The notes under the pieces are model-generated. The model did not search any database, was not told the DNA's origin, and saw nothing but the letters and a program-made list of their open reading frames with translations. DNA of 36,839 bases from a virus, in the IMG/VR virus record IMGVR_UViG_3300042938_002323, positions 1 to 36,839 of that record; one strand, given 5' to 3'. Below, one piece after another: positions 6,557 to 13,292 of this stretch. A program made the translations under genes and the position numbers. How positions within the stretch are numbered: position 1 is the stretch's first letter; the number at the start of each line of letters is the position of its first letter.

Positions 6557-6577
6557 TTGCAACCTCCGGAGACGACC

Positions 6578-7873
6578 ATGGAATATTCTGCCAAAACTGT
6601 ACGTTCTGCGATGAAGGCAAAGGCAAAACGCCTCTCCTCCACCGACCCACAAAAAAAGGTTGACTCGTCAACTTGGTCTCCTTCCGAGCCGTTGAACACG
6701 GATGTTCAAACTGGCATGCGCCCATTGAGCAAGCGCTCATACAAAAAAGGCGGCAAAGTCGTCGGCAAAGCAGATGGCATGAAGGCGGCAGATCGCGCTG
6801 ATCGGATGCCCCGCAAGTCGGGCGGTCGTGCAGAACGCTACCTCACGCCTGACAACCTGATCAACCGTGATCAGAAGATGGCGAATGAGGTTCGCGAAGG
6901 CGGCAAGGCGCACGTTGGCGGATTGAAGCATGGCGGCAAAGCCAAGAAGTTCGGCGGTGGTCCAATCGGCGAGAACCCAATCAATCAGCAAAACCAAATG
7001 ATGGGTCGTGCTGCAGGGGCGATGAAGAAAGGCGGCAAGGTAAAAAGCCGTCAAGAAGGCGGCAAAACCATTGAGCAAAAAGGGCTTCCGCCATTGACAG
7101 CGGCAGAGCGTTTGAAGGAAAATCTTGGCATTGAACCAAAATCTTCAATGAATCCAAAAACCCGTAGCTCGCAGACCTCTCGCGCAGAGGCTCAGGAACC
7201 CGACCGCCTTGGAGAATTCATCGAGACTCTCCCTCGCAAGAACGGCGGAAAAGCTAAGTTCGAAGGCTCCGCGAAGGATGAAGCCCAAGATAAAAAGCTC
7301 GCTGCCAAGCGCGGCATGACCATGAAGCAGTGGGAAGCGTCGAAGGCTGACACGAAGCACGACAAGCAGGAGTCCATGAAGGGCTTGAAGAAGGGCGGCA
7401 AAGCGGAACATGCTGCCGATTGCTCATGCAAACAGTGCGGCGGTCGCACAATGAAATACAGCGGCGGCGGCGTGTTCTCTGGCAACTCAACAACCAAGGT
7501 TCCTGGAGTTGTTGGCGGTCGCAAAGCTCACGCAAAGGGCGGCAAAGTTGGCAAGGGCAAGGGCAAGACGCACATCAATATCATCATTGGTGCGCACGGG
7601 AGCCCTGCTGGCGGCGGCATGATGCCGAACGCACCAGTTCCTGCTCCAATGTCCCCGAGAACACCTCCAATGCCTCAAGGTGGTCCTCCAATGCCACCTC
7701 CAGGAATGATGCCTCCAGGAGCTGGCGGTCCTCCTCCAGGAATGATGCCACCTCCAGGAATGATGCCACGGAGATACGGTGGTCGTGCGACCCACGTCAT
7801 TGATCACGCAGCTGGCGGAGGTTTGGGTCGGTTGGAAAAGATCAAGGCTTACGGTCTGACTGGACCAAAATAA
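6578..7873 (+). CDS. Lys/Gly-rich virion-associated protein with GGK/GGR repeats
   Basis: This 431-aa very basic protein carries a dozen or more double-glycine motifs (KKGGK, KSGGRAE, QCGGRTM, RYGGRAT). It has a short Cys cluster, CSCKQC, near residue 285, which could bind metal, and a Pro/Met-rich tail of PPGMMPP units. DGMKAADRADRMPRKSGGR near residue 66 closely matches part of the small protein at 12985. A TTG at 6557 would extend the frame by seven residues, but the ATG at 6578 has a CCGGAG ribosome site and is preferred. It lies between the polyvalent-like protein and the head assembly genes. Low-complexity basic composition suggests DNA contact or a disordered linker inside the head, which is inference. 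I do not recognise a named family. Confidence 0.8.
   Translation: MEYSAKTVRSAMKAKAKRLSSTDPQKKVDSSTWSPSEPLNTDVQTGMRPLSKRSYKKGGKVVGKADGMKAADRADRMPRKSGGRAERYLTPDNLINRDQKMANEVREGGKAHVGGLKHGGKAKKFGGGPIGENPINQQNQMMGRAAGAMKKGGKVKSRQEGGKTIEQKGLPPLTAAERLKENLGIEPKSSMNPKTRSSQTSRAEAQEPDRLGEFIETLPRKNGGKAKFEGSAKDEAQDKKLAAKRGMTMKQWEASKADTKHDKQESMKGLKKGGKAEHAADCSCKQCGGRTMKYSGGGVFSGNSTTKVPGVVGGRKAHAKGGKVGKGKGKTHINIIIGAHGSPAGGGMMPNAPVPAPMSPRTPPMPQGGPPMPPPGMMPPGAGGPPPGMMPPPGMMPRRYGGRATHVIDHAAGGGLGRLEKIKAYGLTGPK
7697..7767 (+). repeat. Three copies of a 17-bp repeat in the Pro/Met-rich tail
   Basis: CCTCCAGGAATGATGCC occurs at 7697, 7733 and 7751. It encodes repeated PPGMMP units, a substrate for slippage or unequal recombination. 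Confidence 0.9.
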
Positions 7874-7898
7874 GTTCTCGGAAGCAATTCCGTGAAAA

Positions 7899-7935
7899 GG
7901 GCCGGACGCTTTCACCCCTCTGTGGTGTCCGGCCC
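7899..7935 (+). promoter_or_regulatory. 9-bp GC hairpin with anti-Shine-Dalgarno loop (possible pseudoknot)
   Basis: GGGCCGGAC (7899-7907) pairs perfectly with GTCCGGCCC (7927-7935). The loop contains ACCCCTCTG (7914-7922), the exact complement of CAGAGGGGT at 7958-7966, which is the ribosome site of the gene at 7972. It also matches 8 nt of a second copy at 7945-7952. AATAATTA follows the stem rather than a T run, so a classic terminator is less likely. The hairpin is clear; its regulatory role is inferred. Confidence 0.6.
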
Positions 7936-7944
7936 AATAATTAA

Positions 7945-7966
7945 CAGAGGGGAAAATCAGAGGGGT
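7945..7966 (+). promoter_or_regulatory. Tandem Shine-Dalgarno boxes
   Basis: CAGAGGGG occurs at 7945-7952 and 7958-7965. The second is 6 nt before the ATG at 7972; the first has no start codon at usable distance. CAGAGGGGAAAA recurs at 8175-8186 before the co-chaperonin start. Confidence 0.75.
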
Positions 7967-7971
7967 CTGAA

Positions 7972-8190
7972 ATGATATTGACTACGACGCATCAGCTCAG
8001 TTATGAGTTGAAAAAGATGATCGGAGCGGAATACGAACGCATCCGAGACAATCTTGCCGCTGGTTCGGCATCTTCATTCGATGAATACCAGCGTCAAGTC
8101 GGAAAAGTTCAAGGGCTTTCGCTTGCACTTGAATTTGTGAACGAAGCCAAGGCAATTGCCGATGGCGAAACAGTCAGAGGGGAAAACTGA
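7972..8190 (+). CDS. Small conserved phage protein upstream of co-chaperonin
   Basis: A 72-aa acidic, probably all-helical protein. The central AAGSASSFDEYQRQVGKVQGL pattern resembles a short two-helix protein I have seen next to GroES-like genes in marine and freshwater podoviruses; that association is recollection, not a search result. The ATG at 7972 has a strong GAGGGG ribosome site that is also the target of the anti-SD loop at 7914-7922. Its stop is one base before the next start, so the pair is probably co-translated. No membrane segment or catalytic motif is visible. Function unknown; a head-assembly role is suggested only by position. Confidence 0.72.
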   Translation: MILTTTHQLSYELKKMIGAEYERIRDNLAAGSASSFDEYQRQVGKVQGLSLALEFVNEAKAIADGETVRGEN

Positions 8191-8191
8191 C

Positions 8192-8584
8192 ATGCCTGCA
8201 ATGAAAATGTACCACGAAACAGATCCTCGAGAGCTGCTCGTTGAGCAGGTTGGAGACATTTCTGATTTTGAATTGTTCAACAACCAAGTTCTTGTTGCGC
8301 TTTATCTCCGACCAAAGATAACAAAAAGCGGAATTATTTTGACTGATCAAACGGTCGACGAAGATATTTATCAAAGCAAGGTTGGCCTCGTGCTTAAAAA
8401 AGGCCCGACCGCTTTCCAAGACGAAGAAGGTCAATGGTTCAAAGAAGTAACCATTAATGAAGGCGATTGGCTCGTTTCTCGAGCATCGGACGGCTGGACA
8501 ATCACGATAAATAGCGTTCCTTGCAAAATTTTGAATGATGTCAATGTCAAAGGTCGCATTTTAGATGTCGATCAAGTTTGGTAA
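8192..8584 (+). CDS. GroES-like (Cpn10-type) phage co-chaperonin
   Basis: This 130-aa protein has the Cpn10 barrel pattern: NNQVLVALYLRP, TKSGIILTDQT, a variable loop, YQSKVGLVLKKGP, then INEGDWLVSRASDGWTI and a C-terminal KILNDVNVKGRILDVDQVW. The TKSGIIL segment sits where GroES has its GroEL-binding mobile loop. Phage versions such as T4 gp31 replace or support host GroES in capsid-protein folding; here the host GroEL would be the partner, since no GroEL gene is in the window. The ATG at 8192 follows AGAGGGG at 8176-8182. An in-frame TTG at 8156 would overlap the upstream gene and is less likely. It lies just before the scaffold candidate and ahead of the capsid gene. Confidence 0.83.
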   Translation: MPAMKMYHETDPRELLVEQVGDISDFELFNNQVLVALYLRPKITKSGIILTDQTVDEDIYQSKVGLVLKKGPTAFQDEEGQWFKEVTINEGDWLVSRASDGWTITINSVPCKILNDVNVKGRILDVDQVW

Positions 8585-10822: not shown

Positions 10823-11737
10823 ATGGCTGTTAATCTCTCACAGATCAAGGATCTCCTCCTTCCTGGCCTTCGCGGTGTCGAAGGCAAGTACGAGATGATC
10901 CCGTCCCAGTACGACAAGATCTTCACAAAGCACGATTCGAAAATGGCTCTCGAGCGTACCGCTGAAATGCGTTACCTCGGCCTTGCGCAGCTGAAGACCG
11001 AAGGTGGTCAGACTGCATTCGATAATGGTGCTGGTGAACGGTTTATCTACAACCAAGAGCACACTGAAATCGCTCTTGGCTATGCGATCACCCGCAAGGC
11101 GATCGACGACAACCTCTACAAGACACAGTTCCAGCCATCCAACCTCGGTCTGACGCAATCTTTCCATCAGACCAAGGAAATCTATGGCGCGAACCTCTTG
11201 AACACAGCAACGACCTACAACGCTGCAATTGGCGGTGACGGTGTGGCACTTTGCTCCACGTCTCATCCGATTGACGGCGGCACAGTCGCAAACACCCCAA
11301 CCACTCAGGTTGATCTCAACGAAGCCACGCTCCTGAACGCGATGATCTCGATCCGGACGAACTTCAAAGATCAGGCTGGCTTGAAGGTATTTGCACGTGG
11401 TCGCAAGCTCATCGTTCCTCCTCAGCTTGAGCCAGTCGCAATTCGTTTGACGAAGACCGAACTGCGTCCAGGTACTGCGGACAACGATGTGAACGCGATC
11501 ATGACAACGGCTGGCGGTCTCAGCGAAGGCTACATGGTTAACGACTTCCTCACCTCCGCTTATGCTTGGTTCTTGCTGACCAACATTGACGGTCTGTCGT
11601 ACATGGAACGTATCAAGTTCGAAACCGATATGCAGGTTGACTTCGTTACTGACAACCTGTTGGTCAAGGGCTACGAGCGTTATTCCTTCGGTTACTACAA
11701 CTGGCGTTCGATCTTCGGCTCATTCCCAACCTCGTAA
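10823..11737 (+). CDS. Major capsid protein (HK97 fold, Mu gpT-like)
   Basis: A 304-aa protein with the expected features: N-terminal LLLPGLRGVEGKYEMIPSQYDKIF; an extended arm with helix (ERFIYNQEHTEIALGYAITRKAIDDN); CSTSHPIDGGTVAN around residue 140; and the diagnostic KLIVPPQLEPVAIRL near 197-211, matching the Mu gpT-type signature. The end (TDMQVDFVTDNLLVKGYERYSFGYYNWRSIFG) fits the capsid A-domain. AAGGAG lies 12 nt before the ATG at 10823. It sits between two Gly/Thr-rich surface-type proteins. There is no long N-terminal delta domain, consistent with a separate scaffold gene. Confidence 0.9.
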   Translation: MAVNLSQIKDLLLPGLRGVEGKYEMIPSQYDKIFTKHDSKMALERTAEMRYLGLAQLKTEGGQTAFDNGAGERFIYNQEHTEIALGYAITRKAIDDNLYKTQFQPSNLGLTQSFHQTKEIYGANLLNTATTYNAAIGGDGVALCSTSHPIDGGTVANTPTTQVDLNEATLLNAMISIRTNFKDQAGLKVFARGRKLIVPPQLEPVAIRLTKTELRPGTADNDVNAIMTTAGGLSEGYMVNDFLTSAYAWFLLTNIDGLSYMERIKFETDMQVDFVTDNLLVKGYERYSFGYYNWRSIFGSFPTS

Positions 11738-13266: not shown

Positions 13267-13292
13267 GGGGGAGCTTCGGCTCCCCCTTCTCC
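13267..13292 (+). terminator. Rho-independent terminator with UUCG tetraloop
   Basis: GGGGGAGC (13267-13274), loop TTCG, GCTCCCCC (13279-13286), then TTCTCCTT. It is very stable and likely limits read-through from the capsid genes. Confidence 0.88.

Follow-up and report, generated by a model that had tools for sequence, protein, structure and literature searches.

A pseudoknot predicted ahead of a phage co-chaperonin gene, with a loop complementary to the ribosome sites of two genes

The stretch analysed here (hereafter the window) is the whole of a 36,839-nucleotide virus record, IMGVR_UViG_3300042938_002323. Portal protein, co-chaperonin and major head protein genes are recognised in it, and the element described below lies inside this structural-gene block, between an upstream gene and a pair of small genes, ORF72 and a co-chaperonin. 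Features of the locus, all on the plus strand, are as follows.

6557-7873, plus strand: upstream gene (438 aa, Pro/Gly/Met-rich C-terminus) without a Pfam or PHROG match; its stop codon, 7871-7873, abuts the element.
7875-7896, plus strand: hairpin A, UUCUCGGAA-GCAA-UUCCGUGAA, directly after the upstream stop codon (-8.3 kcal/mol).
7899-7935, plus strand: hairpin B, a 12-bp stem S1 (7899-7910/7924-7935) closing a 13-nt loop at 7911-7923 (-24.3 kcal/mol).
7915-7923, plus strand: C-rich loop segment CCCCUCUGU, the 5′ strand of the pseudoknot helix, complementary to all three copies below.
7936-7943, plus strand: linker L3, AAUAAUUA, spanning stem 1.
7944-7952, plus strand: copy 1, ACAGAGGGG, the 3′ strand of the H-type pseudoknot with the best geometry.
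7957-7970, plus strand: hairpin C, UCAGA-GGGG-UCUGA, carrying copy 2 (CAGAGGGGU, 7958-7966), the ORF72 Shine-Dalgarno region, in its loop and 5′ arm.
7972-8190, plus strand: ORF72, a 72-aa protein predicted to form a helical hairpin, the putative first controlled gene.
8173-8191, plus strand: copy 3, CAGAGGGG (8175-8182), the co-chaperonin Shine-Dalgarno region, in a small hairpin (GUCAG/CUGAC) that overlaps the ORF72 stop.
8192-8584, plus strand: phage co-chaperonin (GroES-like), the putative second controlled gene, with one base between the ORF72 stop and its start.

The co-chaperonin was assigned by a match to phrog_3188 (E=6e-10), with Pfam Cpn10 falling just below its cut-off. ORF72 is conserved in relatives but belongs to no named family; an AlphaFold model is a confident helical hairpin (pLDDT 90, helices 5-29 and 36-63) that matches only unnamed phage proteins by fold. 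We considered whether ORF72 might be a Rop-like kissing-loop binder, but the model is a generic helical hairpin and no Rop was among the listed fold hits, so this is not claimed. Near the end of the upstream gene, at 7691-7784, short direct repeats (18 and 36 nt) encode Pro/Gly/Met-rich repeats.

An earlier note, made from the sequence alone, had described a perfect 9-bp GC-rich stem enclosing an exact 9-nt complement of 7958-7966, which contains the ORF72 ribosome site, with a second, 8-nt target at 7945-7952. What it had observed is present in the sequence and is far more than chance. The stem GGGCCGGAC (7899-7907)/GTCCGGCCC (7927-7935) is perfect, and the fold extends it to 12 bp with two G-U pairs; ACCCCTCTG at 7914-7922 is the exact complement of CAGAGGGGT at 7958-7966; and the second target is in fact 9 nt, ACAGAGGGG at 7944-7952 against CCCCTCTGT at 7915-7923. 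The note did not mention the third target, copy 3, at the co-chaperonin ribosome site. In the whole window, CAGAGGGG or its complement occurs only at these four places. The single-sequence fold of the leader is only mildly unusual (z -1.95), and the decisive support is comparative.

Searches with the co-chaperonin found several hundred related viral loci, individually numbered here with the prefix L. We were able to read 256 leaders, 163 of them distinct, falling into about 114 clusters, of which 113 representatives, all from uncultured phages, were analysed. Of these, 98 have a loop-target match of at least 5 Watson-Crick bases by an automatic rule that also lets in a few false or misplaced hairpins (e.g. 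L270, L354, and L178, whose true element lies further upstream). The element is conserved by covariation in more than 80 distinct clusters. Loops in unrelated lineages read UCCUCUC, UUCCUCGG, ACCUCUCUU or UUCCCCUUUC, and the targets change with them. L028 has loop UUCCUCGG with CCGAGGAA at copies 1 and 2; L244 has UCCUCUC with GAGAGGA at copies 1 and 3 and GAGAGG before the start; L257 has CCUCCCG with CGGGAGG at copy 2; L228 has UACCCUCUU with AAGAGGGUA; L332 has a 12-base match at copy 1; L234 has UUCCCCUUUC with GAAAGGGGAA at the co-chaperonin site only; and L227 has CCCUCUCUUU with AAAGAGAGGG at the co-chaperonin site. Some lineages lose individual targets: L017 keeps only copy 3, L263 lacks copy 1, the L192 and L225 types lose copy 3, and in L231 only copy 1 follows the loop.

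The earlier note had named the absence of covariation between loop and ribosome site in relatives as grounds for refutation, and we found instead that loop and targets covary. Swapping loops among the 113 representatives lowers the mean match at copy 1, copy 2 and copy 3 (z 12.6, 12.4 and 10.2), with none of 5000 permutations reaching the observed value in each case. As such permutations ignore kinship, we also compared 49 disjoint nearest-neighbour pairs with differing loops. By Watson-Crick run length the own target beats the swapped one 29:5 for copy 1, 25:5 for copy 2 and 25:11 for copy 3 (p 4e-5, 3e-4 and 0.03), whereas by duplex energy the support is weak for copies 2 and 3 (p 0.003, 0.07 and 0.09, respectively). 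A tree-based independent-pairs test gave only 3 supported pairs and had no power. As a control for ordinary G-rich ribosome sites, only 3.4% of the ribosome sites of 356 other genes in the same loci match the local loop over at least 6 bases, against 82% of 98 co-chaperonin sites. A shared anti-SD of the host as the cause of the similar copies was rejected, because other genes in the same loci use different ribosome sites.

In an alignment of 44 leaders (43 distinct relatives; the row identical to the window is L002), stem S1 is paired in 100% of cells, with two-sided changes in 9 of 10 pairs. Exceptions are G-U and never A-C, so it is the sense-strand RNA that is selected, and a structure on the antisense strand was rejected. 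The pseudoknot helix S2 shows two-sided changes in 5 of 7 pairs, hairpin C also shows such changes, and sliding the partners by 1-3 columns destroys the signal. A hairpin of the C type is found before the start in 87 of 98 relatives, with 37 distinct inner stems, and in 80 of them the G-run is in the loop. A hairpin directly after the upstream stop (hairpin A) is present in most relatives, scoring 7.4 against 4.5 for shuffled sequence in 67 loci. The small hairpin around copy 3 was seen in the window's own lineage but not in the other lineages inspected by eye.

For copy 1, the geometry is that of a classical H-type pseudoknot. Across 89 relatives, stem 1 is 10-15 bp (mostly 12-13), stem 2 is about 7 bp, stem 2 abuts the 3′ strand of stem 1 with no intervening nucleotide (L2 = 0) in 74 and with one nucleotide in 8 more, and the third loop, L3, is 7-12 nt (median 9 nt) with 3.9% G. 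In the window the corresponding values are S1 12 bp, L1 4 nt, S2 9 bp, L2 0 nt and L3 8 nt. Using copy 2 instead would give a 22-nt L3 and open hairpin C, with no gain in helix energy. The most likely ground state is therefore the copy 1 pseudoknot plus hairpin C, and hiding of the ribosome sites of ORF72 and the co-chaperonin by the loop is a competing state whose reality rests on the covariation at copies 2 and 3. The earlier note's interpretation, a pseudoknot that hides the ORF72 ribosome site and could limit translation of the small protein and the coupled co-chaperonin, was thus supported only in part: the H-type pseudoknot is strongly supported, but the geometry points to 7944-7952 and not to 7958-7966 as its partner, the ORF72 ribosome site sits in a separate conserved mini-hairpin, and the competing state extends to the co-chaperonin ribosome site. 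The note's suggestion of a response to temperature or a bound protein remains a hypothesis.

In the DNA-pattern scan and the long viral records searched, the element was seen only upstream of this pair of genes, once per genome. A covariance model of the leader finds the window element as its only hit in the window (the window's own sequence is in the training set through L002), finds held-out relatives such as L178, L246, L264, L302, L257 and L328, and finds at most one copy in each of 20 long viral records, 12 of which have one. A DNA pattern of copy 1 plus hairpin C, not tied to any protein, hit 23 stretches in all viral contigs, and all 23 lie 218-226 nt upstream of a co-chaperonin gene on the same strand. 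An unanchored scan for CCCCTCTG followed by CAGAGGGG returned many stretches that are probably simple palindromes, since the pattern is itself a hairpin, and only those at the co-chaperonin locus were used. Rfam searches of the window and of 20 relatives, at gathering and permissive thresholds, gave nothing credible, the only hit being TYMV_upPK at E=6.7. Among isolated relatives with related co-chaperonins or capsid genes, Pelagibacter phage HTVC027P, phage DSL-LC04, phage 023Pt_psg01, Alcaligenes phage QDWS535, Roseobacter phage CRP-901 and the Manatee Spring genome MW202675 lack the element, so no cultured carrier was found. The window's major capsid protein (10823-11737) is 92% identical to that of MW202675 (MW202675.1, L221), while the co-chaperonin of the same phage is only 58% identical and lacks the element, suggesting a likely module exchange. 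In L178 (1969-2042 and downstream to 2788), an HNH/AP2 endonuclease-like gene is inserted between ORF72 and the co-chaperonin, yet AGGGGG sites stand before both the inserted gene and the co-chaperonin.

We consider it likely that this is a cis-acting RNA element in the intercistronic leader of ORF72 and the phage co-chaperonin, acting as a translational gate for the two coupled genes. What sequence comparison establishes is hairpin B, the H-type pseudoknot between its loop and copy 1, hairpin A, hairpin C with the ORF72 ribosome site, and loop complementarity to the ribosome sites of both genes, maintained by compensatory change (for stem 1 demonstrably on the sense strand) and belonging to these two genes; that pairing alters translation, that the direction of control is repression, and that there is any trigger are inferences from sequence alone. 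In this model, the pseudoknot and hairpin C would keep the ORF72 start in a closed or slow state, and hairpin C must open for initiation at ORF72. By computed free-duplex energy the loop binds the three copies at -17.6, -17.5 and -16.3 kcal/mol, against -8.2, -7.7 and -8.2 for a 16S anti-SD (a generic one, because the host is unknown), i.e. about 8-9 kcal/mol more tightly, so the G-rich sites look tuned to the loop rather than to the ribosome. The loop could then trade copy 1 for copy 2 or copy 3 and block either start. As the co-chaperonin ribosome site overlaps the end of ORF72 (gap of -1 to 23 nt between the genes in relatives), ribosomes translating ORF72 would open it, and one RNA decision would set the output of both genes, keeping it low or delayed, and probably well below that of the flanking virion genes. 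One loop can hold only one of three targets at a time, however, so simultaneous repression of both genes in cis is not explained by pairing alone.

There are other possible explanations. It is possible, though we think it doubtful, that the copy 1 pseudoknot promotes translation, with copy 1 serving as a decoy that keeps the anti-SD-like loop off the real ribosome sites and both genes on, and pairing with copies 2 and 3 representing rare off states. The copy 1 pseudoknot plus hairpin C is indeed the geometrically and energetically favoured fold, and copy 1 tracks the loop best, but hairpin C and a stable pseudoknot about 20 nt before the start would be expected to slow initiation, and L017 and L263 lack copy 1. 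Similarly doubtful is a protein operator, in which ORF72, the co-chaperonin or a capsid protein would bind the pseudoknot and repress translation, by analogy with T4 gene 32, where a pseudoknot upstream of the start binds the gene's own product (PMC3014915). ORF72 is small, conserved and helical and could be an autogenous regulator, but loop and stem sequences vary freely as long as pairing is kept, and ORF72 matches no RNA-binding family.

Less likely still is a trans-acting, c4-like antisense RNA, in which hairpin B (with A) would be cut from the transcript to repress the ribosome sites of both genes on other mRNA molecules. One loop with two or three targets on the same transcript recalls the c4 RNA of phage P1, which is made from the same operon as its target (PMC8198154), and L017 and L234 match only the distant copy 3; however, the tight H-type spacing to copy 1 is a cis feature, c4 (RF01695) matched neither the window nor 20 relatives, and nothing in the data shows processing. 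An ordinary intrinsic terminator or mRNA-stability hairpin, with loop complementarity as a by-product of G-rich ribosome sites, is very unlikely and was rejected for most members. The window has no U tract (AAUAAUUA follows the stem), 84 of 98 relatives have 3 or fewer T in the 8 nt after hairpin B, and this reading does not predict the loop-target covariation, hairpin C or the specificity against other genes. Some outgroups (L219, L336, L330) do have plain terminator-like hairpins with a T run at this place, and in L264 (1640-1710) hairpin B is followed by a run of eight T, so that it could also be an intrinsic terminator, with the complementary sites still downstream, which hints at the origin of the element.

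Among described systems, the T4/T2/RB69 gene 32 leader (PMC3014915, PMC535899) likewise has an H-type pseudoknot in a phage mRNA leader upstream of a ribosome site, linked to translational control. There the pseudoknot lies 67 nt upstream of the start and nucleates gp32 binding (PMC3014915), whereas here the loop is complementary to the ribosome sites of two genes, the ribosome site is in its own hairpin, and the element sits between genes directly before the first start. The c4 antisense RNA of phages P1/P7 (RF01695) is a structured phage RNA upstream, in the same operon, of a small ORF that it represses by base pairing; the present element has instead a single loop with several near-identical targets and a local H-type geometry. 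In the SAM-II, preQ1-II and SAM/SAH riboswitches an H-type pseudoknot competes with Shine-Dalgarno access (the SAM/SAH H-type fold is named in PMC7367207). Those riboswitches keep conserved ligand-pocket bases, whereas here the loop, L1 and L3 vary, and invariant columns lie in stem 1, the C/G pairing run, the ribosome-site G run and the start codon; no unpaired base is conserved apart from the start codon, only the pairing, which argues against a small-molecule pocket. In the E. coli rpsO (S15) and rpmI/L20 regulatory pseudoknots, loop-to-downstream pairing near a ribosome site governs initiation (the rpsO operator pseudoknot is mentioned in PMC3014915). These are host ribosomal-protein operators, with no relation in sequence, genes or target multiplicity. 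The Pseudomon-groES RNA motif (RF01721, listed in PMC2864571), a candidate cis-regulatory RNA associated with groES, was described from Pseudomonas and not from phage co-chaperonin genes, and was not detected here by Rfam search.

The element is another phage pseudoknot tied to ribosome sites and a new RNA family, one that would work like, but is not a member of, known pseudoknot and anti-Shine-Dalgarno regulators. It lies in front of a phage co-chaperonin whose dose probably matters for capsid folding, and its three-target design makes possible a direct test of how one loop can arbitrate between competing ribosome sites, with natural variants as ready-made compensatory mutants. A more far-reaching possibility, which we put forward tentatively, is an RNA-only arbitration switch, in which one anti-Shine-Dalgarno loop chooses among a pseudoknot partner and the ribosome sites of two translationally coupled genes, so that a phage sets the dose and timing of its own co-chaperonin through competition of three near-identical sites for one loop. 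If true, this would be a regulatory logic that, to our knowledge, has not been described before, and a new RNA family spread over a large group of uncultured phages.

Elsewhere in the window, a strong symmetrical hairpin, GGGGGAGC-TTCG-GCTCCCCC, lies between genes at 13267-13286, with a T run on the minus-strand side.
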